A stretch of DNA of 64,000 bases, from NCBI RefSeq assembly GCF_003573695.1, contig NW_020650970.1, positions 940,665 to 1,004,664 on the forward strand. Direction: 5' to 3'. The translations under genes were made by a program, and so were the position numbers. The number at the start of each line of letters is the position of its first letter. Within the stretch, counting starts at the first letter, position 1. This stretch comes from Papaver somniferum. Lineage: Eukaryota; Streptophyta; Magnoliopsida; Ranunculales; Papaveraceae. The notes beneath the pieces were generated by a model. The model was not told the DNA's origin. It ran no database searches and saw nothing but the letters and a program-made list of their open reading frames with translations. Shown here piece after piece: positions 32,364-55,989 of the stretch.

Positions 32364-32415
32364 TCTTAGAAATTGAACTATGATTTTAGGCATACCAAAA
32401 TCTTTTAAGGCATAT
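32364..32415 (+). repeat. P1 left inverted repeat
   Basis: TTAGAAATTGAACTATGATT followed by TTAGGCATACCAAAATC and TTTTAAGGCATA pairs with the complement of 37412-37460 (TTTCTAGAACCATGATATTG and onward) with small gaps and substitutions. Confidence 0.55.
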
Positions 32416-32679
32416 TGAATGAAGATAAAAAAGGTTGTGAAATAACAAAATCAGATAATCCCTTAATCCAAATTTTTTTAATGGCAAATCTGCCCTTTAC
32501 GTATTAGTGTTAATAATCTTGATTAGTGATTAAATATTTTGTTTAGTGATTAAAATAATTTTCAGAATTATAAGAGTTGTTTAGATGAAAAATTTGAGGA
32601 AAAAAAAATCAAAGTTTTGGTTTGGTTAAGAAGGAGAGAAAGAGAAGGAGAAAGTGAGAAAATTCTAATTCTTGATTCA

Positions 32680-33467
32680 ATGGAGGATGAGGAGGGTCAT
32701 CATTCATCTAAAAAACCTAGGAAAATACATATCAACTACAACAATGATCCAAAAATGGCTGATTTCTTAGATCATGAGAATGATTTTACACCCACTCAAA
32801 CTCAAGCTCAAACTCAAACACAAACTCAAGATGATGATTTTTATGAGCCAAATCCTGATGATGAAGACATTGATGAGGAACCCAATGCTTCTAATACACA
32901 GGTACACTTATATCCTATACTTAATCTCACTTCTATAGCTCTCAATTATCAAAAGTTAGGTTTTTGGAATCATGGTTCGGCGAAACAGGTTGAGGTTCGG
33001 CTCACATCTATGAGCCGAATCTACCAATTGATGAACGGTTCGGCTTACTGAATCTGTTTACTGCATGCGCCGAACCTATAATTTCTAATTCCAACCCTTT
33101 TGCTAGACACTAGTTCGGCTTATATGAAAGTCTCATAGTAAGCCGAACAACATCCTGAATATCCCGGAATAGAATCATTACTAATTCGGCTTACATATCC
33201 AAAATTGTATGTGCCGAACATAATTTGTTTATTTTTGGGTTAAAATATTGTTCGTGGTTCGGCACATATTGAGGATATCGTATAAGCCGAAACCTGTAAA
33301 TGTTTATAGTTCGGCACATAATGTGATTATCGAATGCGCCGAACCTTGTTATTATATTCCCTTTCTAGTGTTTAACCTTGTGATATTCTTTGTAGATCGT
33401 GCTTGGACCCATGGAAAATCAACCTGATCCAGTAGACATAATTCACGAGGATACCAAGGATCACTAA
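32680..33467 (+). CDS. P1 left gene: small acidic protein with Q/T repeat (two exons)
   Basis: Exon 1 is 32680-32901, with donor CACAG|GTACAC. The intron, 32902-33395, is filled by the TTCGGC array and ends TTTGTAG. Exon 2 is 33396-33467. Both parts are in phase 0, giving 97 residues. The first exon reads MEDEEGHHSSKKPRKIHINY, then a TQTQAQTQTQTQ run encoded by ACTCAA-type hexamers (about 32800-32828) and an acidic tail PNPDDEDIDEEPN. No known domain was found. The matching end of P2 also starts an inward gene with MEDD (55669) whose putative intron holds an array, so this is probably the N-terminal part of a longer element-encoded protein that has lost its main domain here. The start at 32680 is chosen over an upstream in-frame ATG at 32617 because it matches the P2 start. 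Confidence 0.45.
32971..33346. repeat. P1 left motif array (TTCGGC / GCCGAA)
   Basis: About a dozen copies in alternating orientation, for example GGTTCGGCTCAC, GAGCCGAATC, GGTTCGGCTTAC, GCGCCGAACC, AAGCCGAAC and GTTCGGCACAT. They lie wholly inside the intron of the left gene. The flanking bases often continue as ACATAT or its complement. Confidence 0.8.
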
Positions 33468-34867
33468 AACATGAAATTGAGGAACATCAACCTGATCGTG
33501 CTTGAGGAACACCAATACTGGATTACACCAATAATGATTTTTAAGGCTGGGCTTATAACTCAAATTATAGAAAAAGCCGAACCTGAAGGACCATTAAAAA
33601 CAAAGTTCAGCACCTAAAAGCAAAGGTGTTTGCAACACCATAAAAGTGTACTTAAAACTTAAGAAAAAGTGTACCATAAAAGTGTACATAAAAGGGCATT
33701 TAACCACGACCCCTCTTCTTAGTTGCACGACCACCTCTTCTTCCACCTTGGTCTTCATCTTCCGACGCATCATTACCGGGTTGGACGGTAGCACCACCTT
33801 GGCTTGTACCTTCACCAACTTGTCGAGACCTCTTAGTGGTAGGCCTTTGTTCGGGTTCCTCGGGTCAATGTCCTTTGTTGATGATTGCATCCCACTTGTT
33901 GATGAGGTATTTTTGTTCTTCCACGGTCATTGGTATTTTGCAACCAAGTTTGGCCTTCATTTTTTTCAACATCTCCCTACCCGCGGCAACCTATTTTTTC
34001 ATTTGTCAACAACTTATAACCATGAGGTTGAAGACATTTTTACCATAACTAATATATGAAAATATTATAAAGTGAAGTCATTCTTCCCATAATCTTGAAA
34101 GCCTTGACTACATCTTCGGAAGTAGACTTGTTGGTGATCTTGATTGGCTTCGCCTTCCCCTTATCAGCTATCTTTTGCCTTTTCTTATTGATAATGAAGG
34201 GATGAGAAATTTGGTTATACCAATCCATATAGTCCGGATCCTCTTCACATGGATCATCAAGTAAAGGTGTTAACTTGGACGCATTTAATGTGTGATTGTC
34301 TAAATTATTCCAAAGCTCAACGGTGGGATCAGGATCATACTTTGGTTCCCAAGATGAAGTGGTGCTTTTAGTTCCCTTACCACTCTTTGGTAACAACCTG
34401 AATTTCTCGTCAAACAAAGGAACCTTTTGGACGCATCCTAATTGACGGAGTACTCGCCTAGGATCGTATATAACATAACCACCGGGATACCACAATGGCC
34501 CATGATACATACCTACCGGCATATCCTCATCTTCAACAACTTCATCTTCTTCATCTTCCTTCTCATATGGTTGAAAAGTGACATCATCAACACCAAGACG
34601 GTCTAACGTCTCTCTCAAACTTGCCACCAACTTCTTTTTGTTCCTTTTCTTGGAGTCCTCGTACGCGTACCGTGCTGCAGTTGGCTCAGTATCAACATAA
34701 TCGACATCTTTCTCAAATACTTTGGCCAAGTTCAAAATTGGGAAATGGTCATATATCTACACCTACATCCAGAGAGCCACATTAAAAAATCAAAGGAATT
34801 GAATTGATAGAAACAAGATTTACTTGGAAACATCAAAGTAAGACTAAAGTTTGCAAACTCAGAGAAC

Positions 34868-34956
34868 TGTTCGGCTTATATGGATCAAGTATTATAAGCC
34901 GAACCAAGTAAGTAAAAACTTCGGCTTAAAAGATTTTATGGTTATAAGCCGAACCA
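34868..34956. repeat. P1 middle motif cluster in PMD intron 2
   Basis: Four copies within 90 bases: TGTTCGGCTTAT, TAAGCCGAACC, TTCGGCTTAAA and AAGCCGAACC. They form two inverted pairs, all inside intron 2 of the PMD gene. Confidence 0.75.
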
Positions 34957-36242
34957 TACTCTGAACTCCCAAAAGTTACCTGGAGCAAAGTGAAGTTCCC
35001 TCCGATGTTTGTACTTGTCAACCTAGACGCGGTGGAAAGTTGGTCCAGCAGGTAAGCGAGCGTAGCCGTTCCCCAAGCAAACTTGTTACAAGTTTCAAGA
35101 TTCTTTACCAATTGGAGATAATTAGCATTTACCTTGTTTCCAGTAGTGTCGGGAAAGATGTCTCTACCAAGAGTATAAAGCAAGTAGGCAGTTCCGGTTT
35201 GCTTCACTTTGACGGGATCCATTATCAACAAACCTTGTGTGACTCTTTCCTTTGTGTTCTCAAACTCCCTTTTCAAGTTAGTCAACTTGATCTTCTTATT
35301 CTTCTTATTTCTTCCACCTGGTATGCAAACGGTATCGACATCTTTAACTGATCAACAAAACTCCAACTCAGTTTTCTGTGAATCCCAACCAACGAATTCC
35401 AGGTACAAATTGTATAGCTCATCCCAAATCAAGTCATAAAAACCAGAGTCCACACTTACACCCCTTGCTTTAAGGCCTGTAATCTTACTAGCCTCATCAG
35501 GAGTGATTTCCATCTCTCCAAAAGGTAATTGAAATGTGTAAGTTTATGGAAAAAAGCGCTCGGTAAATGCAGAGGACGACACACTAGCATATTCCTTATG
35601 TCCATAATTGATGATAGGCCATAAAGCACTGCGTTGTACGTAAGCAATCACCTCAGGAACCTCTTCATCAAGACTCCATTCCGCTGCCCTCTGGTGTCTC
35701 AATACTCGGACTGCACGGTTGTGATCAGGAGTCTCATAAATTTTCTTCGCCCAAGAATCGGCATAACCAATCAACACATTTCCTCCATCTTCCGGAAGAC
35801 CATGAGGCAAACCATCTGATCGAGGTGTAATTACGTCATCTTCATCAGGAATGTGTAAACCAGTGATCCGTCGATCATCATCGTTATTCTCTTTCTCGGG
35901 TTCTGCCACCTTATTACCTTTCTTGTCTTTCTTGGGTTTTCCTTGGGGTTGTGTTTCTTGATGAACTTCTTGATTATCATCAACTTCTTCATCTTCAGCT
36001 ATTCCTTCTTCTTGTCTTTCAATTCTAACTTGTTCAGCTTCTTCTTCTAAAATTCCTCCTCTAGCTCCCGCTCCCAATTTTTTCTTACCCCCTCCTCTAG
36101 GATCGGGAGTTTTAGAAGTAGAAGGTGTTACCTCCATCTTCTTCCTCTTTGTAGATGCATTGGTCCTGACACAAGTATGAAAGTTATAAGACTAATTCGA
36201 ACAACAAAGAGATTTGGAAAGCCAAAAACTTGTAAGAAAATA

Positions 36243-36890
36243 AGAAGGCTCGGCTTACCCGAAGTAACACATATGAGCCGAATCATGAGTTGAAATTTTT
36301 ATTAGCTTACACAAAGAGTGGATCGTCTCATACCACAAAACAATTATAAGCCGATCCTATATATTCGGCTCACAACCGATACCGTCGAATAAGCCGAGTC
36401 TATGGTTATGAACTCAAACATGTATTCGGCGCAACATGATATAATATAAATAAGACGATCCTATACACTTGTAAAAATTATGAAATTTTAACAATGATAT
36501 TCGGCGCAACCCTAATACTATCGAATAAGCCGAATCTAGACTTATGAATTGAAACCTTTATTCGGCGCAAAACTAATACAACCATACAAGCCGATCCTAA
36601 GCACATGCAAAAATTCTGAAACTCAAACAACAATTATTCGGCACAAAACTAATACTACCATACAAGCCGATCCTACGGACATGCAAAATTTCTGAAATTC
36701 ACAAAACATATTCGGCACAAAACTAACACCATCGAATAAGCCGATCCTAAATATAAGTCTATGTGTCACTAAGTTCGGCTCAAAACGGATTTCAGATATA
36801 CACCGAGTCGTTCATATGCACTTTCAGGGTTCAGTTTCAAGAACAGCTCGGCGCACATCTAAGATTTGTTTTGCGCCGAACCATCACCTG
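36243..36890. repeat. P1 right motif array, units of 60-77 bp
   Basis: Units beginning ATTCGGC(A/G)CAA occur near 36423, 36500, 36560, 36637 and 36710. Each is followed about 30 bases later by CAAGCCGATCC or AAGCCGAATC in the opposite sense, so each unit is an inverted pair. Further copies lie at the edges, to about 19 in total. All lie within intron 1 of the PMD gene. Confidence 0.8.
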
Positions 36891-37411
36891 TAACCGCCGC
36901 AGAAACATGATTTTGACGAATTAAATCAATCAAACCAATCAAAAACGTCAAATACGAGATGGGTTTGTAAAACTAACCTTCTTATTCTCATTTCTGGAGT
37001 TGGTTCTTCTTCAATCTCTTCTTCCGGTTTATTTTGTGGTTGATTTTGAGTTTCTTCTTCACTCTCTAAATCTTCTTCTTCTTCAGTGGGTTGTTCAATC
37101 GCTCGATTAGAACGAGATACTGGCTTACGGCGAACCATTATATAGATGAGTTTAATCGTCGACTAAATTTTCACGAATCGACGATTAAATTTCGGCGATG
37201 ATACGATGAAAAAAAAAAGGAGAAGGTGGGTTCGGCTGCGGAGGATGAGGAGGAAGAAGAAGGTGTTGAAACTGATTTTAGGTTTATGATTATAGATTTT
37301 TGTATTAAGGTTAGAGATAGATTAGTAATTTATAGGATTTAAGGGCATATAGGTAATTAAACCACCCATAGGGTACCCCTTATAAGATCATCCAAGTTAG
37401 GACTAGTCCTT

Positions 37412-37460
37412 TGTATGCCTTTAAAGTTTTTGGTATGTCCAATATCATGGTTCTAGAAAT
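37412..37460 (-). repeat. P1 right inverted repeat
   Basis: Complement of the left end at 32364-32415. On the minus strand it reads AACCATGATATTGGACATAC and then CAAAAACTTTAAAGGCATAC. Confidence 0.55.
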
Positions 37461-37480
37461 TTTGGATTTAGGAACCAGTT

Positions 37481-37527
37481 GGGCTAAGGTGTATAACTGT
37501 ACGAACACCTTAGCCCATGGGCTAAGG
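37481..37527. repeat. Compound palindrome CCTTAGCCCATGGGCTAAGG
   Basis: A perfect 20-base palindrome at 37508-37527. Its left arm also pairs with GGGCTAAGGTGT at 37481-37492 through a 12-base loop, so two alternative hairpins can form. It lies just outside the P1 right end, near the start of duplicated segment copy B. Confidence 0.75.
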
Positions 37528-38351
37528 AACATGTTTACAGGTGACGTGTTGGTGTTGTTTCATATGGGCAACAAAGCCCAAGCCCGAAAGGTATAATAAA
37601 AAAGTCCACCTATTTTACAAGGATTTTTAACACAAAAATAATCTTTTAAAAATTTGTTTTGTTATCATCAATTGATTAGTGGCTGTCAACAAACTTGGTT
37701 CATCCCATAGGTCTCTTCTTCTCCGGATGTATGTTGTTGTTGCTCCATGATCTAATGGAATGCGGAATTGATCAAATAGACAACCTTTTTTTTTAACTGC
37801 AATATATTTTGGCTAATCTAGCAGCTTAATCTAGCTCATAAGACTTAACCTTAGTTAAATTGGCTATCTCCACCCAAATTTAGTTTCTCACGATCCCCCA
37901 TAGCCAAACACTGCATTGCTTGCATTTTTTGCCCTTATTATCTAAAAGTTGTAACCTTTATATACAAACAAACACTAGAAAATACAAAGTATCCTTGAAA
38001 TTTTTGTTTCGATTTTTATATACAAACACGAGAAAATCGTGCAAGAGAATCAAATTATTGAGATCTTTTCGTAGTACTGATGATGCGGATATGCCCACTC
38101 GTGATAACCACGTCTAGATTTTCCAGATAAAGTTTCAACTCTCCACATGGAGGGCCGGCTAAGCTCCATTATTCTATCTGTGGGGATCAGTCGTTGACCT
38201 ACTAAGTACGCGACACGTCGTCCACGTGAATCACGAAACGAGATCAAATTTGAAAGGATACAATCTTCTCGGAATGTGTCTTCACTGACAATCCCGCCAT
38301 TACTTCCCACGACGCAATAATTAATGGCGTTAAAGATATACAGTTGAGTGT

Positions 38352-38359
38352 TATATAAG
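38352..38359 (+). promoter_or_regulatory. Probable TATA box of cysteine-rich gene B
   Basis: TATATAAG, 73-80 bases before the ATG at 38432, at the same relative place as in gene A. Confidence 0.65.
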
Positions 38360-38431
38360 AGGGCACAACCAACCTGAAGTAATCAAATATCTTACTCTCT
38401 GAAGCTTTGGAAACAAATTCAGTTTATAAAA

Positions 38432-39206
38432 ATGGCTTCTTTCAGTTCTAGCTCAGTTTGCGTTGCTGCATTTCTACTGCTTTCGATCTTCCTGGTCTCA
38501 GCTTCAACAAACCAGAAAAATGTCATTTCCTATGTTTTGCCTACATGTAAGTATCACCGGAAAACTATTCAGTTAATTTACTATATAACTCCTTTTTCTT
38601 GATCGGTAAAGATTTTGTTTCTGATGACCGGGCGATTTTCGATTTCAAGTTTTAGAATCTGTGTAGAGAATTTGTTGTGTTTATGCAGCAGCGGTAGGAG
38701 CTGGCGGTCAGTGTGGTCAACCTGGGGACTCATCCACTGAAACTACGATTATCTCCACAAATTGTGCCGACTGTACAAACTGGTGTAATGAAGAATGTGC
38801 TGATACAGACAGTGAGGTGGTTGAAAACAAGTGCGCAATAGGTGATTCAAAATACGCCAGGCGCTGCAAGTGTTGCTGCCGTGAAAAAGCCGCACCTCCA
38901 GCCGATCAGTGTCGTCAACAAGGTGGCACACCCAAGGAGACTACAAGGCCCACCGCAAATTGTGGCGAATGTACAACCTGGTGTAACCAACAATGTTCAG
39001 CTATGGGCGCTAGTGTGATTGATGACAAGTGCTCAATACCAGGTGGATCTTCTTGGCTCAGGAAATGCGAATGTTGTTGCCGTGATAACTCAAAACCCCC
39101 ACCTCCAGCAAGTTGCGGTTGTGCTCCAGATGTAACATTGACCACACCGGGTTCCAAGCCATGCAATTACAAGCTTGTATCGTCGTTGACATCCTCATCA
39201 TCATAG
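38432..39206 (+). CDS. Secreted cysteine-rich protein B, two ten-cysteine domains (two exons)
   Basis: Exon 1 is 38432-38546, the intron 38547-38688 (GTAAGT…TGCAG) and exon 2 38689-39206, giving 210 residues. The signal peptide MASFSSSSVCVAAFLLLSIF is almost identical to that of gene A, while the mature part has diverged much more. Two domains are present. Domain 1 runs from QCGQPG to RRCKCCCRE. Domain 2 starts at QCRQQGG and has C-x16-C-x2-C-x3-C-x3-C-x11-C-x11-C-x-CCC. The linker between domains is short (KAAPPADQ), unlike the long proline-rich linker of gene A. The tail GCAPD…KPCNYKLVSS is conserved. All cysteines are kept and there are no breaks, so it is probably expressed. Fold and role are unknown to me; a secreted defence peptide precursor or inhibitor is possible. 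Confidence 0.87.
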
Positions 39207-39506
39207 ATATATCAATGGAGCATGAATGGAATTAACGATCGTTGATTGGATGTGATTTGTTTCTTTTTTTAACTTCCAAGTTTTTGATTTGCTTTGTTTT
39301 ATGTTTTGAGTTTGAACTCATTTGGATAATTGAATTGGTTTTTGCATTTAAGGGATTGAATAAGTTGTCTTACTTTTCTAAAGGTTATGAAATCTATTGT
39401 AATCTTTATTTAAGTGTTTGGAATTAATGAAAACGATGCTTATTAGAATAATACATTAGAATGATGACGAAATACACAAGAAATGACACAATTATTTTAT
39501 CTCTTT

Positions 39507-40973
39507 TCATATTGCCTCTAAAAATTCATCCACATTCTTATCAGAACTTCCACCTTCACTTACTGCTTGTACTGCTAGTTCTTTCCAGTTCCTTGCATTC
39601 TTTTTCATTTCCTTCCCTTTTTCTCCTTCCATGGCTTCTTTTATACATGATTCAAGTTCATTCTTTCTCGAAATCCCATCTTCATCCACTTTAGCTCTAA
39701 TCCCTACTTTCCACAAATCTTCAACACATTTAGCATTCGTTGGTTGGTCTGACCATTGAGGAAATGCAATCATCGGTACGCCTAAACTTAACGATTCCAC
39801 TATGGAATTCCACCCACAATGAGTCACAAAACAACCCAATGCGGGGTTTGACAGAACTTCCAATTGTGGGCACCATGTGATTACTAGCCCCTTCTCCGAT
39901 CCTGGAGACGTCGAGATATCCTTGCGAAATGTGCTCGGAATCTTGTTTTCTTCTGTTTTCCTGACTACCCACAAGAAATTGTAGTCGCAACCTAGTAATG
40001 CCCCTGCAACTTCCTCAATTTGCTCTTGGTTCAATACTGCCATGCTACCCATGGAGACATAGATTACTGAGTTGTCCTCCTTTGCATTGAGCCAGTCTAT
40101 GCATTCAGCTCTTTTTGTGTCGAATATATTAAGACCGTAATCATTGTCTCCTTCAATCCGTTTGTCTAAGTACTTGGATGGAATAGTTGGTCCGATTGTC
40201 CTCACTCTCCATAGCTTTGCCATCCAATTCAACACCTTTATGAAAAGAAGTTATTAATAACATTACAAGTAATAATTAATTTAATGTAATGTAAATGAAT
40301 TTCATTGAAAGAAATTGTATACCTCAGGCTCCAAATCGTCGAAGGAGTTGAAAAGAACCCAATCTGCCTTCTCAATGTTGGAAAACTGGTCCACGAGTAG
40401 CCTCAAAAAGTGGGGGAAAGATTCTACGTCAGAAACGAAAGAAGGTAACTCCAGAACCTTAAACTGTGGCAATCCGGGAATTGAGATCATCTCTCCGTTC
40501 GGCACCGGAACCTTTAATAGACCGCGGTATATGTAATAATAGATGCTATTAACAGCAAGAGGTTGAGTGAAAAAAACAGCTCCAACCAAGTTGAGTTTTT
40601 GGGTCACGTTCAAAACCCATGGCACAAATGAATCATAAACAACACAACTCACCGGAGGAGTATCATCTGAATTTTGGATTCTCTCAATTAATTCAGCTAG
40701 TGCTTTCAATCCGATTGTTTCAAAGCGTTCAACATAATCTTCAGCTGTAGACCATCCAACATCGTCGTAACCATCAGATACTGTTTCGACCTTAAAAGGA
40801 CCATCTTGGATTTGAATTGTTTTAGCCATATAGTTGGTTAAGACTACTGTAATTTTGACATCTTTGGCAGCTAATCTTTTTGAGAATTGAAGAATCGGGT
40901 TTATGTGGCCTTGAAGTGGGTATGGGAAAACTAGTATATGCGCTCCATAAGCCTTCTTTTCCACTTTCTCCAT
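39507..40973 (-). CDS. UDP-glycosyltransferase, UGT74-like (two exons)
   Basis: Exon 1 is 40973-40323 (217 codons), with an 87-base intron (40322-40236, GT…AG, phase 0), and exon 2 is 40235-39507. The protein has 459 residues, normal for plant family-1 glycosyltransferases. The N-terminal half begins AHILVFPYPLQGHINPILQF, with the catalytic histidine at 23 and the partner aspartate at 114 (CVVYDSF). The PSPG donor-sugar box spans residues 338-381, from WCPQLEVL through THCGWNSIVES to FPQWSDQ; a final glutamine usually goes with UDP-glucose. Overall the sequence resembles UGT74 enzymes, which glucosylate carboxylic acids such as salicylate, auxin or related compounds in the cytosol. The acceptor cannot be told from sequence. 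The single intron also fits this group. No break is seen; it is the most clearly intact gene in the window. Confidence 0.93.
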
Positions 40974-41586
40974 TTTCTCTCTTGCTCAGTTTTATTCCTG
41001 TAATTAATTTACAGTATTTTTTTGCTTTGGGGAACTCAAGAAGAGCATTTCTTCATGAATGGAACAAAGAAAAAGCAGGGAGAGGGACAACCTACCTCTT
41101 ACTAGGACCATGTGGTGGACAGTGGGACTATTAATGGCTTCAGCTTTTTCTGCCGGATTCGGTGGATAATTCAGTATATGTCAACATCCTTTCGTCCACA
41201 TTGTAGATGGAGGTAGATTTTTCTTACATTTAAATAAAAATATCTAGCTAGTTTTCATATGTTTTTTCTTATCCATGTTTTACATAAAAATGTCAAGTAT
41301 TTATGTATAATTTTTCTGGGGTGAGCTAAAATTTTATTAATAAAAGAAAAAGAAAATAAAGACAAGACGAGGACATAAAGCCAATAGCAGTCAAAGAAAG
41401 AAAGAGAAAGAAAAAACAAAAAAAAATGAAAAATGGAATGGAAAAATGAACAGAAAATGGGTCATTTGTACAAATATTTTTAAAACATGATCCAAATGGA
41501 CGAGTAAAAATTAGTATGGGTGAAATGGACACCAAAAAAATAGTAAGGATGAAATTGGATTCATCCTGATTTAAACTTTAAAAATA
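40974..41586. other. Intergenic DNA upstream of the glycosyltransferase
   Basis: No gene seen. It should hold the promoter of the minus-strand glycosyltransferase, but I see no convincing TATA box at the usual distance. From 41340 on it is A-rich. The phrase GGATGAAATTGGATTCATCC near 41548 recurs as GGATGAAACTGGATGCATCC near 41676, either side of the MITE. Confidence 0.5.
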
Positions 41587-41668: not shown

Positions 41669-41670
41669 TA

Positions 41671-44418: not shown

Positions 44419-44468
44419 CAAGTTGGGCGTTCGTTCAGGCTCTACCGCTCCAACTTGAGGGGGAGTAT

Positions 44469-44724: not shown

Positions 44725-44734
44725 TAATTTATTA

Positions 44735-44746
44735 TGGTATCAGAGC
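44735..44746 (+). other. tRNA-Met primer-binding site next to LTR a
   Basis: TGGTATCAGAGC, followed by GGGGAGATCCGCTCAATTGC. The same leader recurs at 47316. Confidence 0.8.
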
Positions 44747-46846
44747 GGGGAGATCCGCTCAATTGCTTCCGCTTTCTATTTTTGGATTATCATTTTCATT
44801 GATTTTGTTCAGGCTAATCATCAATAATAGTCTATTTTTCCCAATGAGTAATTTGTTTATCTCCATCAGAATTCTCGTCAAATAACTCTTCCAAAATCAT
44901 TTCTCTTTTTATCCTTTGTGCCTCGTTCATTTGGCACTTTTATTTGCTCAATCAAATTGATTTTATGTAATACTGGTAATCCCAAATAAATCATGCAAAC
45001 AATCAGACGATATTGCGGTGGTGATTCAACCACACAATTTACCAATATATTACTTTTTGATCTATCCAAGATCTCCAGTATCAAATAATTCATGCTTCCA
45101 TGAGCTTTTTTTTTTTGATCGGAAATTTCAGAGTTTCCTTTGATCAATCAAATGAAACTAATATATTTTCCCATATATTCACATTGTTGGAATCTATTTT
45201 TTCCAAAAGTAGCTTGCATAGCTGCATTCTTATTCCCCAAGTTATTGGAATATCTCATATGGCATGGAATTCTGCTTAAGTGACGCAGTTTGTGCCGTTT
45301 TTATTCGCTGTCAGTTCAAACACATGGTTTGTGAAACCCCAGTATGTCGGAACCTTGATTCAAGGTGCATGTCAATCAGCTTATGGTTCTTTTATTAATT
45401 ACCATAGCAAGCTGCGAGTATCAAATAATATCCTCATATGGTTCTTTTATGAGCTAATATTCCTCAAACTTAGTTGATCATTTTACGGTCAACTTATTCA
45501 ACTTTCCCGCGCATCTTAATCATTCACAAAAGATGTACGTGTTATCATGTCAACTTTTCATTCCTAAAGATTGTTCTCTTTGTTATTCGAGAACTAAATT
45601 CTTGATCTTTCATTATTGGATTTCATATCCTCGTATCCTTTCAAGCAAACCCGATATATGGGTAATCCTAGTTGACTATTTCATAGTCGAATCAATTTAA
45701 TGTCCAAATTATCCGCATACAAATTTGTATTATTTCTCTGTCAATGAAAATTGTTAACATCGTATGTGTTATAATATGGTAATCCCTTAATTACCTCACT
45801 GGCAAACCAGAAAATATTTCCATGTTTATGTGAAATTGATTTTGTTTCCAAAAATATTTTCCGAGTATATCCAATATATTTTTCTCGGAAATATATTGCA
45901 TCAGCAGTGCCAGTAATAGCCTTCTTTGTTAGTTGATACTGCTGCACTTTGTATTATCTCACTTTTGTCACATGGTCAATGAGTACCGCTGAAATTGTTA
46001 TCTCACTTTGTCAAACAAGTTACCTCTGATCGAAACTTGTTGTTCCAGTTCATGGGCACAAATCAGAATATATTTTCATCATTGCATCAATTTTGATGTG
46101 TGTTAGTTATCAATGTGTCTTGTACAAGTTCTTGGCTCGTTCTAGGAATTTGATTTACGAGGAGTACTCCTCTCTTTAGAAGAAGTGTAATTTGACTCCT
46201 TTGATTAATTGTGGTGTATGGATGCAATATATATCTCCTGCCCACGAAAGCTTTCTTTCATGATCATAATTTTCATCGGCTATGATGGTCTTTGGTTTAT
46301 GGAAGTTCTCCTTCAAGAAATCTTCATTTATTTCTTACCCTCGTTCCCAAAATACATGATATTTTGTGATCTTATTTCCAAAAGTAGTTTTTTGATAATA
46401 TCCTTTATTCGGAAAAGACTCTTTTGCGATCTTATTTTCAAAAGTTGTTTTTCATTCACGAAAAAAAATAATCGTAAACAGTTAGACGTTCATCATCTTG
46501 TTATTATGAAGGACTGTCATCTCTTTTTATTTACTCATTATTTGAGTTTTTATCTTGTCTTCTATTATGCTCCAGTTTTCATGAGCTAATGTATCCTTTA
46601 ACATGTCTTCATCCAACAAAAGGTCCCTGCTACTCTAGCAAATTCCTTGGAAGATTATCAAAGCCAGTTCAAGTTCCGTCATTAATATACAGTCCTGTTC
46701 AACATTTTTTTTCAAGGCAGGCAGTGTATTGAAGTTTAGACATGATGTTAATTGATGCCGTTCATTATGGATGTCTCGTCGCGTGAAGTAGTTCGTTATT
46801 ATTATTAATTGGTCAAGTTGCACACTACGTTTCTCTACGTGTTTAA
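44747..46846. other. Noncoding interior between two copia-type LTRs
   Basis: About 2.1 kb rich in A and T with no recognisable gag or pol. Open frames here (for example 46209-46589) have no domain and biased composition. Its position between a primer site (44735) and a polypurine tract (46847) suggests the interior of a large non-coding retrotransposon derivative. Confidence 0.45.
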
Positions 46847-46858
46847 CTTGAGGGGAAG

Positions 46859-47305
46859 TATTAGAGTATATATCACGTCATCATGCAAGTAGTCGAGGTG
46901 CAAAGAAAGACCGATGCCACTTTACCGTGAAATGGAGACCAAGTCAAGTGAGGTGCATCTAGGCATGTAAAGTGAAGACCAAATCAAGTGACCGTGGGAT
47001 TCCTGCATGTGAAGTGAAGACCAAATCAAAAGATTATATAATATTATGCCATTAATTTCTAGATATATAGTAACTAGTCAAAGATAATTAAGATTTGATA
47101 TTATCTTCCTAGGTTTAGTTTAATTTATAAATAAGTGTTCTAATGTAAATGTAAATTCATCTCAGTATCCACTGATGATCAATAGTGAAGTTTCACCCTA
47201 AAGGGGGTTTGTGTGGACGTAGGCGTTAGTGCCGAACCACGTTAATCCCTTCCTCTTCTTTGATTTGTTTTCCGTATAATCGATGATCCGACTCAGTGAT
47301 ATCCA
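46859..47305 (+). repeat. Copia-type LTR b (about 447 bp)
   Basis: Preceded by ACTTGAGGGGAAGTA (polypurine tract) and followed after ten bases by the primer site TGGTATCAGAGC (47316-47327). It starts near TATTAGAGTATATATCACGT and ends GTGATATCCA. The initial TG is not clear, so the start is uncertain by a few bases. The sequence is unlike LTR a. Confidence 0.65.
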
Positions 47306-47315
47306 TAATTTATTA

Positions 47316-47380
47316 TGGTATCAGAGCGGGGAGATCCGCTCAATTGCTTCCGCTTTCTATTTTTGGATCTCCCCGCTCTG
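47316..47380 (+). other. Primer site and leader ending in a perfect 16-bp hairpin
   Basis: TGGTATCAGAGC at 47316-47327 continues with the same 50-base leader as at 44735. It then meets GGATCTCCCCGCTCTG (47365-47380), the exact complement of CAGAGCGGGGAGATCC (47322-47337), with a 27-base loop. Confidence 0.8.
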
Positions 47381-48194
47381 TGTAGCCTTGCAGCAACATG
47401 ATTTGATATTAGGGTATTTTGTGTCCCGTACCCTAATATCTTCTTTGTTACCATTTTGGTAAATATCTGCAACGCCTTCCTCAATACTAGAAAGTTGAAC
47501 AACATTTTTTTTTTTTTTTGAGAAAGAGGCCAAATAAAAATAAATTAATAAGATTGCCAACAGCGGCGAATCCAAGATTTCATGAGAGGGGAGGAAAAAA
47601 AAATCACCACAACAAAATAAATGACCATCTTGCCGTTACCCCTTTTTTAAAGAACGCGCAATTGGGATAAAAAAGTAATTGGAGAATATTGATTACTTTA
47701 CCCAACCCATGATGTGTGCTAACGGGTGATTTCTGGGTATGAAAATACTAAAATACCCTTTGATTAATTAAAAAACATTCTGAAAAGACCATTATATCCT
47801 TTCTACTAAAACTTAAAATAAAAAACCAAATTCATATATCCCCCATTCTCTAAAAACAATACCGGCACTGTTAGGGTTAGGTTTTGAATTTTTGTTCTTC
47901 ATCTGTTCTTCGTCGATTCAAAAACTTCTTCGTTGATTAACATACCTAAATCATAAACAATGTCTCCACGAAAGAATACAAATGCCCAATCGTCAAAATC
48001 GATAGGTCAACAAAACCACGAACAAAGAATTGCTAAGATTGCTCAAGAGCTAGAAGAAGAAGAAGCAGCGGATTCGGACAATCAACTTCTCGCAACCATG
48101 GCTTATGTGAGAAGGTAAGTGATTTTAAACTACTTTATGAGTGTTTAAATCGATTTATAACAATGGGTTTAGGTTAGAATCGCGAACCCTAACT

Positions 48195-48790
48195 GAAACA
48201 GTCGAGTTTTAGTGAGTACCGTCACTGAAATATGTATGAATACAGTGCCGGTTTTGTGTTCTGGCATTCAATCTTGGATGAATGCAATGCCGTTTCCAAC
48301 CCCAGATTCACCTGAAACTGAATTTTCCCTACCGGCATAGAATTTGGGTCGAAGTCTATGCCGGTTTTTAGTACCGGCAGTCTTTAATAATAATTCGTGT
48401 ATGCCGGTAGTAGACTTAAAACATACAGGAGAGTTTATGAATTTGTCACCAGTACCGGCATAGATTTTGGGTTGCATTGTATGCCGGTTTTGGGTACCGA
48501 CATTCTTTTGTTATAATTCGAGAATGCCGGTAGTGGACTTAAAACATACAGGAAAACTTAAGAATTTGTCACCTATACCGGCATAGCTTTGAGGTTGATT
48601 TTTTGCCGGTACAAAGTTACGGCATGGAATTGATTTATTTCGAGAGTGTCGGTAGAAGTCTTTTGATATCCAGGAGAATTACATATGACTACCGGCATTC
48701 TCGACAGTGAATGTTCACTGCCGGAACATTTAACCGGCGTGGTTAGATTAAGTAAGTCAATGTCGGTACAAAAACTGAAAGTGAGTTGTC
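48195..48790. repeat. P2 left motif array, three ~120-bp tandem units with ACCGGCA/TGCCGGT
   Basis: Units start with ACCGGCATAG near 48331, 48453 and 48576. Each carries about four motif copies in alternating orientation (ACCGGCA, ATGCCGG, ACCG(G/A)CA, ATGCCGG), followed by AGTGGACTTAAAACATACAG and a GAATTTGTCACC-like end. The third unit is more worn. The whole array is inside intron 1 of the PMD gene. Confidence 0.82.
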
Positions 48791-48992
48791 TCACATTCAT
48801 TTCTTGTGCTTATGATATAGGTCAAAAGCCAAGGAAGCTAACAAAATAAAAACTAAAGATGCGGTCACTAAGAGAAGAAGGAAGGACGGTATTGATACTC
48901 CTCAATCTCTCCCTCCTCGAGGGAAAGATGAAGGTCACAAAAAGCGTTTGGGGGCTGGCAGGCCCGAAGGGGTGTATAAAAATGAAGCGAAG

Positions 48993-51208
48993 TGAAAACG
49001 GGGGCCTACAGTAATACCGCAAGTGCACGGTCGTCGGTTGTAGCTCGTGCAAGTACGGGTCGATCCACAGAGATCGGGTGTGTTTGGAGTGTTCTAGCTA
49101 ATTGGGTTCTAAGTTGCTATTGGGCTATGAAGCCTTTTGGCTTAATTTGGGCTTTGAGTGCTAATGGGTTTGTTCACAATAAAAGGAACCTGGGCTCAGT
49201 TGGTCTTTGAAATGTAAATGGGCTTTTGTTTTAAACTTAGGCTTTGATTAAGCCTGAATTGGATTGGGCCTTAATGAATTTGGGCTTTGGTTTTAAACAA
49301 CTGGGCTTTGGTTAAGCCCACAGTTGACTGAATTGGGCTTGGATAAACTTGCTTTGGAAGGCAGCAGCAGCAAACAGCTTGGCAGAGACAACACAGCAGC
49401 AGGCACCAGCAGCAGCAGTACTGCAGCAGGGGAAGCAAATAGTAATGCAGCAGTGCAATGCAGCAAGGCAAGTGCACAACAGCAGTGACAGAGTGCACAA
49501 GCAAGGAAGAAAACAACAAACAAAATGAAAGATACAACAGGGCAACAGTAAAAGCAAAGAACAAAACAAGATGAACCAAGGCCTAAGGCCAAGGGCAGGG
49601 ATATGAATGAAACTGAAATGAAGCAAGGCTAGGCTAAGGCATTCAGGAGGTATACTAAAAGAATGGGAAGAGAACTAGCTTGCTATAAGCACTAGTTTCT
49701 CCCAATGCACAATCAACACTGCAACCTAAGCATACAACAAGAATGGCAAGAAAATCAGCTTGCTATGAGCACTGATTTCTTCCATTGCACAATTAGTTCA
49801 AAGCTTCACAGATACCTAGCCTAGCATTCCATCAATTGTGACAGCAAAACAAACATGACAGGAACATTAACAAACATCAACAGGAGACAACATAACAGAA
49901 GCAGTGAAACTAAACAGAACATTAACAGGAAATTAAAAGGACATTGCATAAACATTATGAACATAACCAACTGAAATTAACAATGAACACACACAAACAT
50001 CTAACACATTAACAGGATACATCATAACAGGACACAAGTAACATGAACATGAAATTTTAGCTGAAATTGAAAATTAACAGGACATGAAAGTCCTGGATGT
50101 TGGCTACTCCAAACATAACTATTACAACATACCCACAGTCTTATATATACCCACAACACATTAGGGTTCTACAAAAAAAATTCCCAAACTGACAGAGCTA
50201 GGGTTGGTGAATTCTTACCTAATTTGATGTAGCAACATCAAATTGAACGCAACCCATTACTCTACTTGTCCTTCTCTACCTCTCCATGCCTTCAATTTCA
50301 CTCTAGCTCAACCCAATTTACCTATTTCACACTTTAGGGTTTCGGTTGAAAATGTGTGAAATAAGTGAATTAGATGGACTAGGGGGATTGGAACAATGAT
50401 GGGTTATCATTGTTTGACGTGGTGACAGAGGTGGGTGGCGGAGCAGGTGGTGACAGAGGTGGAGAAGGTGGTGGCAGGACATGGTTGCAGGGAGATGGTT
50501 CTGCAGAGGGGTGGGTGGAGGAGAAGGTCGACTGGTTGGGAGAAGGGGTTGTTTGGTTAGGTGGATGGTGCTCGGTCACTAGGGTGTGAGGCGGGTGTAT
50601 CTAGTTTTGATGTTCTGTGACTCTGAGCTGCGAGATGCGAAGATGGTTGGTAGATCGGACGGTGATGCGGAGGCAAGCGATGAGCGACCGTTGGATTATA
50701 TGATACAACAAAATCAACGATGCCAGATGGAGTTAGGTGTTGTAGTGTTAGGCGGAGATATCAAACTTTGATGAACAGCAATGGAGCGACCGTTGGATTC
50801 AACTACCATCTAATCTGAAGGCTTGGAATTCCAGCGCTGTGGTGCTCGGCATAGACTTCAGATTTTGATGCTCTATGAAGGAGCGACCGTCGGATGCTTC
50901 TGAGAAATGATCTGATGGCTGAGAACGGAGGCGCTTTTGTGTGTCGAAAATGAGGTTGTGCGCACCATTCTTCGCGGCTTCCTTGCGTAATTTCTCCCGG
51001 CTTTTCACTACTTTTTCTGCTCTTTTCGCTCCGCGACTCATCCGAACTTTATTTATTACCTAAAAATACAAAATTAATTAATAAAAATATTTATTCTTGA
51101 AAACAATGAAAATACAGAATATGGGATAAAATGTAGAATTAATGCACAAAAGATGAGTTAAAATGCCAACAAAAAGGGATAAATATATACAATATTTGGC
51201 ACTCATCA
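48993..51208 (-). repeat. Solo LTR, Tat/Ogre-like (2,216 bp), inside a P2 exon
   Basis: On the minus strand it begins TGATGAGTGCCAAATATTGT and ends GTAGGCCCCCGTTTTCA, terminal sequences familiar from plant Tat/Ogre-type LTRs. It includes CAG-rich stretches near 49360-49440 that give false open frames, and a C/T-rich coding-like shadow near 50400-50580. No primer site or internal part is attached. It splits exon 2 of the PMD gene. No 5-bp duplication is seen (CGAAG on the left, TGGGC on the right), which suggests recombination between elements or loss at the edge. Confidence 0.75.
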
Positions 51209-53679
51209 TGGGCTGAGACAAGAGAGATAATTTGAGAGAGTGGTGGTGACCGTAGTCGATTTGTAATCTGTGAGCACGATGATCAAGATGAGAAAGATGA
51301 AGAGGAAAGTGAGGATGAAGATAATGTGGTTCCTCCAAGTCAATTAGCAAGCCAAAGCGAAGTTGTTGGGCCAAGTCAACAACCAACACAAGGCAATGGC
51401 AAGAAGGGCAAAGACAAAGTGAAAGTTAAAGGTTCCCACCTTCCTCATATTAACGACATGATACTTGACCTTGAACGTGGTATAATTTAGGGTGAAGCTC
51501 CGGAATCGAAAACACTATTTGGATACAAGCACTCGTAGGCTCGTACTATTTATCAAACCTATGTAAGCATTTTTTATCTTGTGCATATGTATTGTTGTGT
51601 ATTTATGTAAAATATTTTAATTATATTGTCTCCTAATTGTAGGATCATAAGAAGGTTGTGCGTGTTTGCCGAAACCAAGCCGCGGATTGTTGGAAATTAT
51701 CCGAGGAATGTGAAGAGGTCCAAAAAATAGTAATGGATTCTGGTCTATATGCTTTGGTTGAAAATTATGTGAAGCCTGATTCCGTGACTGTCAATTGCTT
51801 CGTCGAAAGGTATCATGGTGAAACCGATACCATGCACTTCCCTTTTGGGGAGATGACCTTCATCCCTGAAGATACTCAGAACATTCTAGGCTTGAGTGTT
51901 ATCGGAAAATCAATTGCAGAAGGAGTTGAGTCTCTTGACCTAGAATGGTCGAAGTTGCACGCTCTGACTAACAAGTTGTTTGGTTGGGACTACAAAACTT
52001 TGTGGAGAGCTTTTTATGAATCCACGTCTGGTAAGACAAAGACAATCAAGTTGACGCTGCTTAAGAAGAAGTTTGAAAACACAAAGCAAAGAAGTTTGGA
52101 GGATGGATGGGTCCCTAAAAAAATTCGTTACATTGCCGCTACGTACCTGTTATACATCTTGGGCACTAGGGTATTCCCTGACACTAATGGCAACAAGTTA
52201 GTGCGAACTACCTTCAGTACTTGGACCGTTGGAAGATGTCTATGGGTATTCTTGGGGCACCGCTGTAATGGCACATTTGATGACGGAGATGAGAAGGGCC
52301 TCTAAGGCTAAAACCAACCAATTTGTCAGGAATTTCATTCTACTGTTGGTAATTTTGTTTTTAAACTTATGTTATTATGTATATTGTTCACATGTACCCT
52401 TATCGTGAACTTAGAAACAAAACTTATTGCTTCACATTGGAATAGGTGTGGGCTTATGAACACTTCCCAACCTTGTTCAAGGACTGGACCTCCTTGAAGA
52501 TCAAAGACCTTCCCGAACCCGATACGCCTATAGCTAAGAGATACGAGTTCAACAATACTCTGAAGCCCGGTAACATAGGTCGACTGATCGATATGAGATT
52601 GGCTTTGGACGCGATGAGTACCAAGATGTGTGTTCGACCCTTACAAGGAGGTTAGAGGAAACACCAAGTTTTGAGGTTTGGTAACGTTGCATTCTACCAT
52701 GGGCCGTTGTTCCACCCAAAAGGATACGTTATGGCCAATCCTACACGTGTGATGCGCCAACTTGGATATAAGCAATTATCATATCGAGACGGACTCTTTT
52801 CAATGTTTTGTTCTTGACCTTTCTCGGTGCTTTTCAACTCCTAATCGGTTGCATGTAGAGTATGATCCAAAACCGGATCCAACAGATTGGAGGGATAGGG
52901 AACCACGTCGTTTGGTAGATATTAGTCAGTGGGAAGTGGGAGCTTGCGGAAAACGGTGATGAGGTTGATGCCGACTACATGGAAGATTACCTGCAATGGT
53001 CACATCCTTTTATCGTCCGCCCGGATGACGTCCAAGTTCCACCCCAGAAACACCCTCCCGTTCCAACTCCCGCACATGCACCACCTACGATCCCCCAACT
53101 TAATAAGACCGTTGGATTGCTAGTAAGTATTGTTAATTACTTATTCGTTTAATGTACACATAATCTTATATTAGCATATATATACTAATTATGTGTTATA
53201 TGTATGAAACTAGCGGCGTCGGCTTGAAAAGTTGAAGAAAATGTTAGGTTGCAAGTACGAGGAATGAGAGGTGCTATCCCTTGAAGAAATGAAGGAAGTC
53301 GTGGAAAATATTGATAAAATTGAAGAAACCGACCCTAGTGCAAGAGATTTGTTCGGGGAAATTAAGAAGAAACCGGCACAAAAGAAGCAAAAGACCAAGT
53401 GATTAACTATTTAGTTGTGTTTCTTTTTCTGGATGATGGTTGTTACGTCTTGAACAATTCCGAACTTGTTTTCGTTTGCACCTCATGGTTAACTCTTTAG
53501 TTGGTTGGTTTGATTTTAGTTTATGATACCTGGATTAAGAACATTTAAGCAGAATCCAGTTGTTTGGTTTATGTTGAACATGTTTAGATTTCTAGTGATT
53601 ACTTTATGTTGAACATGTTTAGATTTCTAGTGAAATGTTATTTTTGCAAGATTTATTTACGACTGCTGCCGTCATGGAA

Positions 53680-53945
53680 AAGCTTAGTTTCAACAACGCC
53701 GGTACTGGTTCCGGCATGTACGAATATTACAGTTCATTTCTGGTTCCTAGTACCGGCAATGAAATGTTTTATAAAACCATACCAGAACTAGAAGATTAAA
53801 AATTTCATGTTCCTGTATAGAAATTGGAAGGTACCGGCATAGTCGTTTTTTCTAAAATCTATGCCGGTTTTATGATTATTTTCAAATTTTCATAGTTGAC
53901 AGAAAACCGGCACTGTAAGCTTGGTTGCTTTCATGCCGGCACTCT
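53680..53945. repeat. P2 middle motif cluster (ACCGGCA/TGCCGGT)
   Basis: Copies include ACGCCGGTACTGGTTCCGGC, TACCGGCAATG, TACCGGCATAG, ATGCCGGTTTT, AACCGGCACTG and ATGCCGGCACT. It lies between the end of the PMD gene and the end of the convergent GRF gene, that is between two 3' ends. Confidence 0.75.
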
Positions 53946-54077
53946 ACTAGTTTTGAGTATAAATCCATTTCGAATGCTCTTTATTTCATTCCTAAGTAGT
54001 CTATTACATTGGATTTGAAACTTTAAATTAAAACATGCTCAAAAACATAGAATGGATTACATTTGGTTAAAGATTAT

Positions 54078-54596
54078 CTATCTCCATCCCTTTTCAACAA
54101 TTTCGGAACCTTTGAGCGTTTCCCGAATCTGTTCGAAGACATCGTCCGGGATGAGGGTGTCAAGGATCATCTTCATTGGTTCTTCTTCTCTTTCAACATA
54201 TTCCTTTCCCTTCATATAACACCCATCACACCCATCGATAGGCTTGCATTGGCCCTTGTGGTTTTCTCTTGACTCTGATAGTTCAACAGCTTTGTCAAAC
54301 CATTGAAACTCATCGCACTTTGGGTGATTCAGACACCTTAGAAACATTCTTCCATTTTCAGCATCATCAGTTTTTGCAATCCAAAATCGGTGTGTCCCAT
54401 CACAGCTTCTACACTTTGAATAAATAAAAGGACAGTCCATGGCTAGATGAGAAGGTGACTTGCAAATTTGACACTTGCAACGATGACTTTGTAAGAGAAG
54501 ATTATATTAGTTATGCGTCATAGTAGTGAAGATTATATTGTTAGTAATGTTTAATCTACTTACTTTGAAAATAGAGCTAGATGATGAATTTCCCAT
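54078..54596 (-). CDS. P2 GRF-type zinc-finger protein (two exons)
   Basis: Exon 1 is 54596-54564 (MGNSSSSSIFK), the 90-base intron 54563-54474 (GTAAGT…AG, phase 0) and exon 2 54473-54078, giving 142 residues. Exon 2 opens with a small C-x2-C-x6-H-x3-C cluster (CQICKSPSHLAMDC). A GRF zinc finger follows: CRSCDGTHRFWIA, NGRMFLRCLNHPKCDEFQWF. GRF fingers bind single-stranded DNA in repair proteins such as topoisomerase III and APE2, and they also occur in plant transposon-associated proteins. After the finger comes an acidic tail (YVEREEEPMKMILDTLIPDD). A TATA-like ATTTATATATAATAC lies about 100 bases upstream on the minus strand. No break is seen, so it may be expressed. It ends facing the PMD gene. 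The splice sites are inferred by eye. Confidence 0.65.
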
Positions 54597-54691
54597 CCCT
54601 TGTGAAGCTTTAACCGTGCTTTCTTTCTTGAGAGAAGGATTTTTGTTATTTGGTGGGTGGTTTGTGTAGATGTTTCCCAAGGAATAAGGGG

Positions 54692-54706
54692 TATTATATA
54701 TAAATG
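54692..54706 (-). promoter_or_regulatory. Probable TATA box of the GRF gene
   Basis: On the minus strand ATTTATATATAATAC, about 100 bases before the ATG at 54596. The right array of P2 lies directly upstream of it, so the array could act as a regulatory region for this gene. Confidence 0.5.
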
Positions 54707-54764
54707 AATCACCAACGGTCTTATTTTTCAAAAAACTAGCCGTTTTTTTTTTTGAATTTCACAA

Positions 54765-55395
54765 ACACCGACATAGTCGTTATTATAGATCCAATGTCGG
54801 TTCCCTGTAACGACAATGAATATTGTTGTACCATGTCGGTAATGGTTGCATATTTGGCCTAATCTCCGAAGAAATTCCCTTATACCGGCATAAAAGATTC
54901 ATTAGACAGCAACGCCGGAAGCAAAGGTGCCGGCATTCTCGTAATTTATTGTCCCAAGCCGGTACACGCTTCCGGCATTAAAAATAATTCATATGTAATG
55001 CCGGTATTTAGCTTTGGAAAACATTTATTCCTGTACGTTTTTTGGTAGGTACCGTCATTGTAAATTTGAAACTTAACAACGCCGATTGCGCTGCCGGCAT
55101 TCTCGGTATTGATGGTACCACGCCGGTACGGAGTTCCGGCGTTGATGTTTATTAATTTCCCATTTTGAAATATTTCATGTATGTTTTTCATGCAGTTCCG
55201 GCATGGTAATCTATCAATGAAACCATGACGGTTTATTATTCCGTAGTGTATTCCTTGGTAGGTAAAAAAGTTAACTGCGTACCGGCATAGTTTTTTTGGC
55301 AGAATACTATGCCGGATCAATATTCAAAATGGGGGATATCGCTCTACCGGGATGGTATTCATACCATTTCTATGCCGGCACCGAGGTCAGTTGAA
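54765..55395. repeat. P2 right motif array (ACCGGCA/TGCCGGT)
   Basis: About 20 copies, more variable than on the left: ACCGACATAG, ATGTCGGT, TACCGGCATA, ACGCCGGAAG, GTGCCGGCAT, TTCCGGCATT, ATGCCGGTAT, ACGCCGGTAC, ATGCCGGATC and ATGCCGGCACC. Orientation alternates. It lies between the acidic exon at 55675-55486 and the GRF promoter. Confidence 0.8.
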
Positions 55396-55485
55396 AAAAT
55401 GGCGGGTTTAAAGAAAAAAAAATCGATTTTTCAACCTCCTAGCAGCTTTACCGATGTATTGGGGATGCATGTTGTGCAAGTTTAC

Positions 55486-55675
55486 TTTCTTGTGTAGCTT
55501 CTTCGAAAAACTCTCCATACTCGTCAAAATCATCATTCAAGGTTGTTGGCTCAACAAAGAGTTGCAATTGAGAGTTGTTGTCGTTAGCTGAAGATTCAAG
55601 ATATGCTCGTTGTTGTAGTTGAGCTAAAGATTCAGCAGCTGCAATTCTCTCCTCACAATCATCTTCCATTTTCAC
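55486..55675 (-). CDS. P2 right-end acidic first exon (partial gene)
   Basis: An inward-pointing frame starts at 55675 or 55669 (MEDDCEERIAAAESLAQLQQ) and runs through NNSQLQLFVEPTTLNDDFDE to GEFFEEATQ, where GAAA|GTAAAC is a possible donor at 55486/55485. The remainder is not found; the array follows. The acidic MED start, the place at the element end and the array in the presumed intron match the P1 left gene at 32680. The phase of the proposed donor differs from P1, so the splice is uncertain. Probably the N-terminal exon of a lost element protein. Confidence 0.4.
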
Positions 55676-55989
55676 AAAAAAAATTCCACTAAAAAATATT
55701 TTTCCCTTCTACTCTCACCTCACTCACCCAAATTCAAATAAAGCACACACTAATCATTTATCAAAAATCTTATGATTTTACTAATTATTATTAATCACTA
55801 ATCCTGATTAGTGAGGGGTGGATTAGGTAATTCGTAAAATACTTAGATAAGGGGTGACCCCGAATTGATATCTGGATCCAGTATTTGTAATTTTTTTATA
55901 TCCCCCAATGGTTTTTTTTATCCCCCAATTTGACATTCTTTTCTAAACATTACACCCGTGTGTCATTGCGTTACCCCTTTTATAGTATT

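Follow-up and report, generated by a model that had tools for sequence, protein, structure and literature searches.

What reads the short inverted words that crowd the introns of two transposon-like units, P1 and P2, in poppy DNA? The units lie in a 64,000-nucleotide stretch of Papaver somniferum (assembly GCF_003573695.1, contig NW_020650970.1, positions 940,665 to 1,004,664), hereafter the window, and each holds a gene for the plant mobile domain (PMD) and, facing it from the other end, a second gene. P1 and P2 are decayed elements with terminal inverted repeats (TIRs), members of plant DNA transposon families that carry a PMD gene. In the part of the review PMC8616336 that treats the PMD, the function of the domain is given as unknown. 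Host PMD proteins are required for gene expression and for transposon silencing.

The arrays of the two elements follow one pairing rule with different words. P1 contains 30 copies of TTCGGC and a single ACCGGC, and P2 24 copies of ACCGGC and a single TTCGGC, the cores being TTCGGC and ACCGGCA, respectively; according to our own exon models, the array sites lie outside coding sequence in 30 of 30 cases in P1 and in 36 of 37 in P2 (66 of 67 together). Taking the offset as the start-to-start distance from CGGC to GCCG, 14 pairs in P1 and 12 in P2 stand at 26-28, compared to means of 0.016 and 0.038 and maxima of 1 and 2 in 500 dinucleotide shuffles of each element. Counted over the window, P1 and P2 account for 26 of these pairs, and a single further one lies elsewhere. 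After merging the pairs that look like tandem duplicates of each other, 10 groups are left in P1 and 9 in P2, every one of them at 26-28.

Regarding their mode of action, the pairs could form short hairpins in RNA or single-stranded DNA, related for example to small RNAs or splicing. The four array introns indeed fold better than 40 shuffles of each (z from -4.8 to -12), and the subterminal repeats of CACTA elements are described as stem-loop-capable in the relevant part of PMC2613891; however, such strong folding follows automatically from the presence of inverted words. The spacers of different pairs are unrelated, with an identity of 0.28 for 8 P1 pairs and 0.32 for 12 P2 pairs, and no matching of the arms beyond the motif was detected within these pairs (p 0.88 in P1 and 0.16 in P2). 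As arms belonging to one pair show no greater likeness than arms taken across pairs, half-sites for a protein are favoured over hairpins. In addition, each family keeps to one word instead of using any complementary pair, and no Rfam family reaches its gathering threshold between 32 and 56 kb. Hairpins are rated as quite improbable.

Further PMD families were sought through PMD matches, starting from the 20 PMD places that score highest genome-wide, which were scanned blind for any hexamer in convergent pairs; since the families were found in this way, the PMD is common to all five of them by construction. Fourteen of the 20 places are copies of one third family with the word AATCGG, with a TIR exemplified by CCTGGCTAAATTGGGGCCTATGCC (locus L020) and perfect 8-bp duplications in 6 of the 14 copies searched. 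ATCGG pairs stand at 25-29 in all 14 loci, with 2 to 12 in each, and are absent from the remaining six. In the majority sequence of the 11 longer copies aligned, 17 forward and 15 reverse AATCGG words form 15 pairs, all at 28-29 (measured from AATCGG to CCGATT), and across these copies 94 pairs have this offset versus 3 at other offsets below 60. The words are also better preserved than their surroundings, as the identity between copies is 0.928 in motif columns and 0.796 beside them, with none of 5000 random sets as high, and CpG retention is 0.876 within motifs (n=32) versus 0.813 elsewhere in the element (n=149), CpG being the site that decays fastest in methylated DNA.

Two more families carry the word TTCGGT, with the offset counted from TTCGG to CCGAA. 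Upstream of the PMD exon in the P0004 family (L042 and L043), 12 of the 13 pairs closer than 70 bp stand at 29-32, and in the P0010 family (L044) six pairs stand at 29-30; the blind-scan maximum is 6 in these three loci, compared to at most 2 in 100 shuffles of each. In total, five families use four words at nearly one spacing. Measured from CpG to CpG, this spacing is 28-30 in P1 and in P2, 26-27 in the third family, 28-31 in the P0004 family and 28-29 in the P0010 family, the third family thus being about 2 bp shorter than the others. Counted group by group, pairs at 27-31 amount to 28 of TTCGGC in P1, 24 of ACCGGC in P2, 95 of AATCGG in the third family and 12 and 6 of TTCGGT in the P0004 and P0010 families; as the words had been picked from the same groups, the information in these counts is limited to the spacing and the near-exclusivity. 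Six other PMD loci and the remainder of the window lack pairs of the four words at 27-31.

The spacing rule is valid genome-wide for at least two words. TTCGGC-N22-GCCGAA occurs 11,028 times (39 for the reversed-pattern control) versus 25 times with N17 (control 8), and AATCGG-N22-CCGATT 9,571 times (control 45) versus 59 with N17 (control 36), while ACCGGC-N23-GCCGGT occurs 2,815 times versus 48 for the reversed pattern; these counts arise from repeated copies and hence are not independent events. Host DNA-binding factors could be imagined to read the CGG words as ordinary enhancers amplified by transposons, as dense CpG words near both promoters could attract plant transcription factors and two families have one word in common. 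However, if one host factor served all families, a single shared word would be expected rather than four different words in five families at nearly one spacing, and this is the explanation that we find least probable of all.

P1 (32375..37453, no strand, 5079 bp) has a TIR of the form GAAC.ATGAT.., matched at 22 of 26 positions, and a perfect 8-bp target duplication, TAGAAATT, on both flanks. P2 (47652..55938, no strand, 8287 bp including a 2.2-kb insertion) has an ungapped TIR matching at 17 of 26 positions and a 9-bp duplication, TTTTTTAAA/TTTTCTAAA, matching at 8 of 9, as seen in a single copy. When the same search for TIRs and target duplications was repeated at 150 random placements within the window, none reached the thresholds passed by P1 and P2. 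The 8-bp duplications of P1 and of the third family fit some Mutator-like elements, and a target duplication of this length also fits hAT.

Searching the genome with the protein of a P1 exon lists 150 places, the best of 6,998 candidates and including the window's own, at 94-100% identity. Three full P1 copies were fetched, and all three align from base 1 to base 5079, flanked by new 8-bp duplications of which TACTTGAT and AAAAAAAT are perfect and ATTTTTTG/TTTTTTTG matches at 7 of 8 positions, so that with the window copy the duplication is perfect in three of four cases. These copies carry 15, 10 and 15 inverted pairs, the arrays being kept in all three. For P2, at least 150 places were found, the window's own included, and in five other copies, examined over 3.6 kb each, the arrays are again present (5 of 5 partial copies), and each of the 34 convergent CGGC/GCCG pairs with a distance below 68 bp stands at 27-28. 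Since the copies keep the arrays and those of P1 share exact ends, the sequence-only reading, which had taken P1 and P2 for a family of PMD transposon-like units with arrays and had expected common ends and target duplications, is supported in this respect.

Regarding arrays that might occur without a PMD gene, the first 50 of the 2,815 ACCGGC-pair places (contig C1 up to 32.7 Mb) include 15, counted by eye, that lie within 5 kb of a P2 PMD place. In the same interval, all five P2 PMD places among the matches listed have an ACCGGC pair within 5 kb. The other 35 places may lie near PMD genes outside the matches listed or represent array-only copies.

The three full copies have about the same length as P1 and contain no large extra stretch, so that a transposase must act in trans. 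The arrays could then be sites for a transposase supplied by an autonomous partner, the PMD having another role. The TIRs and 8-bp duplications of the P1 copies agree with such mobilisation, and direct and inverted subterminal motifs are known from CACTA elements, as described in the pertinent part of PMC2613891. Against it, the arrays of P1, P2 and the third family lie in introns and intergenic stretches, about 0.2-2.5 kb from the element ends. A longer copy with a transposase did not turn up, although no search by terminal repeat was made, and no VANA (Mutator-type) transposase was found among the six P1 and P2 open frames scanned. The trans-acting transposase is considered unlikely.

As most array sites are non-coding, paired at a fixed distance and specific in their words, and as the motifs are conserved in the one family where this was tested, the earlier suggestion that they serve as binding sites for an element protein gains ground, their function staying putative. 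The PMD gene product is the best candidate. PF10536 scores above its curated cut-off (34.9 bits) in two P1 exons (72.7 and 39.4 bits) and in one P2 exon (49.9 bits), in agreement with the presence of a PMD gene in both units, and the P1 and P2 PMD exons align with 50% identity over 58 aa (E 3e-15), as had been noticed from the sequence. Exon 1 of both genes ends at AG|G after IRR (P1) or VRR (P2), also as first noted, and the poppy protein P0007, which is P2-like, continues from SVRR to SKAKQ without a break at the corresponding junction. Many P1-type places among the matches listed have a main PMD exon that is free of internal stops over 421 aa.

The nearest described system is VANC of the Arabidopsis VANDAL transposons. 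As described in the passages on its binding (PMC5735166 and PMC10398659), VANC, a DUF1985 protein, binds short motifs that differ between families, with removal of DNA methylation. Among the 19 poppy PMD proteins scanned, 12 match DUF1985 at E <= 0.05, the best at 7e-7, and the P1 exon matches it at 2.8e-4, raising the possibility of a remote relationship between the two domains. Moreover, counter-silencing by a transposon PMD has already been voiced as speculation in the review PMC8616336 and the MAIL1/MAIN study PMC5418596, in the parts that touch on it. On this basis, a PMD-based VANC-like system is proposed, where an element-encoded dimer, likeliest the PMD protein, reads the paired half-sites and counters silencing, a proposal to which we grant nearly an even chance. 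A protein of the same family would bind the inverted CpG-word pairs as a dimer, and, by occupying sites close to where transcription of the two genes starts, would maintain the word-bearing elements in an unmethylated, expressed state, perhaps also labelling them for mobilisation. More tentatively, and as a possibility towards which we do not lean, the PMD itself could be a sequence-specific, dimeric DNA-reading domain that in each family recognises inverted CGG-type half-sites of the family's word at a conserved distance, with lock-and-key coevolution of word and protein and an ability inherited by the host proteins MAIN and MAIL1.

The product of the second gene could bind the arrays instead. 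In P2, it is a plausible nucleic-acid binder, having a CCHC zinc knuckle by inspection and a weak GRF-like zinc ribbon (E 0.012 and 0.028, below cut-off), and an array lies in its own first intron. However, the predicted second gene of P1, with its short exon 2, has neither the knuckle nor the ribbon and no significant similarity to that of P2, and in the third family the open frame besides the PMD gene has no Pfam match, making this explanation very unlikely. The second genes had been called MED-type; their MED start and acidity are confirmed, but the likeness goes no further, as BLAST aligns their first exons over just 13 residues at best (E 0.066).

Several points weigh against the PMD-based VANC-like system, in addition to the folding of the array introns, the presence of a PMD in all five families by construction and the dependence among the genome-wide counts. 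The PMD loci L013, L019, L021, L022, L023, L025 and L045 have no array, where L045 is a second P0010 copy and L023 is close to P0001, hence a PMD alone does not imply arrays. Word and family are not related one to one, because two of the five families share TTCGGT, and one stray TTCGGT pair in the third-family loci is the sole exception to the match of word and group. The same words also pair at 12-26 or 32-46 in 8 (P1), 0 (P2), 3 (third family), 1 (P0004) and 5 (P0010) cases, so that the spacing rule is strong and not absolute, and in L044 the six pairs at 29-30 are joined by another six at 38-40 and by two with a still wider spacing. Regarding the domain, no PMD protein scanned reaches the DUF1985 cut-off of 35.1 bits, the best being P0018 at 29.7 bits. 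Two AlphaFold models made from 22 mostly poppy PMD sequences are poor (mean pLDDT 55.8 and 44.3), and a fold search of the PDB with the first model returned nothing. Finally, the VANC21 motifs share the same orientation in the passages of PMC5735166 describing them, while in P1, P2 and the third family the motifs form inverted pairs with a spacing of about 27 bp. A sequence search of the PDB gave no relative worth naming. As a separate observation, the second spacing of L044 lies about one helical turn beyond the first and is equally frequent.

The PMD gene of P1 lies on the minus strand, starting 315 bp from the right end of the element. Exon 1 (36978..37138), assigned by translation, ends after RIRR and is followed by intron 1 (36166..36977), with seven inverted TTCGGC/TCGGC pairs at 36251-36878. 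Exon 2 (34980..36165) matches PF10536 at 4.2e-20 in 34926-35351 and has two in-frame stops, and exon 3 (34090..34762, 3' boundary approximate) matches it at 5.3e-10 and has one in-frame stop near its start, at a place where P0019, 95% identical over 193 aa, has none. Between them, intron 2 (34763..34979) contains two inverted TTCGGC pairs at 34872-34951, and a C-terminal exon (33703..33990) is recognised by tblastn of P0001 (45% over 97 aa). On the plus strand, the second gene comprises exon 1 (32680..32901), acidic and with a MED start, intron 1 (32902..33395), with five inverted TTCGGC pairs at 33041-33341, and a predicted short exon 2 (33396..33467), both exons being assigned by translation. 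The distance from the element end to the gene start is alike in P1 and P2, about 310 bp for the PMD gene and, at the opposite end, about 270-305 bp for the second gene. P1 sits between similar stretches with cysteine-rich protein genes (30281-32019 and 37572-39206), 75-77% identical at the nucleotide level in three blocks and apparently a tandem duplication.

The PMD gene of P2 lies on the plus strand. Exon 1 (47960..48114) ends after YVRR and matches P0007 at 51.9% over 54 aa; intron 1 (48115..48820) has five inverted CCGGC pairs at 48333-48723, and the first part of exon 2 (48821..48976) is recognised by tblastn of P0007 (60% over 53 aa). An insertion of 2.2 kb (48977..51210, no strand), with approximate boundaries drawn by inspection of the reading frames, interrupts exon 2, the P0007 alignment restarting at 51434. 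It is followed by the main PMD-coding stretch (51211..52352), which is frameshifted and matches PF10536 at 3.5e-13 and P0007 at 56% over 186 columns, and by broken later exons (52446..53401), supported by tblastn of several PMD proteins to 53026 and by frame inspection beyond. Thus, the window copies of both PMD genes are broken, by three in-frame stops in P1 and by the insertion and frameshifts in P2; neither this state nor the strict spacing of the inverted pairs had been part of the sequence-only reading.

The convergent intergenic stretch of P2 (53402..54077, no strand) has two inverted pairs at 53835-53938. It separates the PMD gene from the second gene on the minus strand, composed of exon 1 (55450..55669), acidic and starting MEDD.., an intron (54690..55449, 3' boundary approximate) with five inverted CCGGC pairs at 54886-55314, and the exon of the zinc knuckle and GRF-like ribbon (54078..54490), where the Pfam match is weak and below cut-off. 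As first proposed, arrays occupy first introns, but they extend to intron 2 of the P1 PMD gene and to the intergenic stretch of P2. Exon 1 of the P2 second gene matches P0015, a predicted protein of poppy, with 83% identity across 33% of a 209-aa query. P0015 (55319-55669) runs from this exon into the array region (KWYEYHAGRV), and at one site where P2 has TACCGGGATG its codons fit the family word TACCGGCATG, so another copy may keep that half-site. P2 also has the variants TACCGACATTCTTTTG and TACCGACACTCTCG, at 48495 and 48647, which resemble the TnpA motif of maize Spm, CCGACACTCTTA, a likeness that is possibly coincidental.

Other array-like stretches were seen outside these elements. At 29500-29900 of the window there is a third, decayed stretch (GTCGGCATC ... 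AATGCCGAC) with one pair at offset 27 and no PMD match near it; it was dropped as a third array, being too decayed to bound. CATGCC (L018, 300-1300) and GAACCT (L016, 1571-1754) were rejected as extra motif families because both lie outside the element copy. At L016, four 52-bp units carry inverted words (AGCCGAACCT ... AGGTTCGGCT), similar to the P1 word and in divergent order. The loci L019, L021, L022 and L025 resemble one another over 1.4-7.6 kb, the sole ground for calling this group repeat-like, and a scan of five frames from L021 and L025 revealed no retrotransposon domain. At C2:47.922-47.938 Mb of the genome (G000), four PMD copies of the P0004 family, 91-93% identical to P0004, stand in tandem with a spacing of about 5 kb.

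The PMD proteins of the P0010 family (P0005 and P0010, residues 1-20) start with MAKTKQTARKALQ, a sequence that resembles the tail of histone H3 (ARTKQTARK) and has K4 and K9 at matching positions. The genome copies L044 (about 2060-2170, plus strand) and L045 (about 1680-1790 in reverse-strand numbering) read MAKTKQNARK and MAKTKQIARK. This N-terminus is possibly a histone mimic in a transposon protein.

Considering the significance of these arrays, four words in five families under nearly one spacing rule, with thousands of natural sites, provide candidate DNA ligands for the PMD and a directly testable job for it, the array looking like a docking code for a transposon protein. If the PMD reads DNA, sequence-specific counter-silencing of the VANC type would be extended to a second, widespread domain, which might yield a naturally occurring collection of proteins that open chromatin at differing target words. 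PMD in Mutator-like elements, motif arrays in introns and the idea of counter-silencing by a transposon PMD are already in print, in the passages cited here. The literature searched yielded no description of the inverted-pair spacing that the families share, a 2022 EMBO Journal paper on anti-silencing coevolution being outside that search.

The layout had been thought undescribed; however, a close parallel is published in the passages of PMC5735166 on VANDAL, where the introns of VANC21 and VANB21 and the upstream region of VANA21 carry motif arrays. Both systems have dense, short, family-specific motifs in introns and other non-coding stretches, with one word shared by two of the five families here, and in both the arrays grow by tandem duplication and the motif differs between related families, as far as the corresponding parts of PMC5735166 and PMC10398659 describe. 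They differ in that VANDAL carries a DUF1985 gene, whereas P1 and P2 carry a PMD gene with a weak, below-cut-off similarity to DUF1985. Unlike VANDAL, the P1-type copies have no recognised transposase and possess TIRs with 8-bp duplications, and the activity of their arrays is a prediction.

The comparison with En/Spm made at first is a fair functional analogy, since there too an element protein, here putative, reads short GC-rich words in direct and inverted orientation that diverge between families, as described in the part of PMC2613891 on CACTA elements, and TnpA is related to demethylation, as cited in PMC10398659. However, the ends here are GAAC.. with an 8-bp duplication and not CACTA ends with a 3-bp duplication, the arrays are largely intronic, and no TnpA-like protein is recognised, so that VANC of Arabidopsis VANDAL appears to be the nearer parallel. 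Regarding Mutator-like elements, the relevant section of a survey (PMC6446971) reports the PMD as frequent in plant clades and VANDALs, often as an antisense accessory, and as an extra gene of angiosperm elements it is similar to the PMD gene here. Unlike those elements, no transposase gene is recognised in the frames scanned from P1, P2 or the third family. Mutator-like elements usually have a duplication of about 9 bp (8-11), compared to 8 bp in P1 and the third family, and arrays are unmentioned in the passages of PMC6446971 and PMC5418596 on elements with PMD. The host proteins MAIN and MAIL1 share the PMD, and a 'DOWN' promoter motif is suggested as their possible target in parts of PMC7156037 and PMC9899485. 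Unlike the transposon PMD genes, they are host genes aiding silencing, with a chromatin contact stated as unknown in the same passages; an inherited ability to read DNA, if true, would explain how they find their targets.

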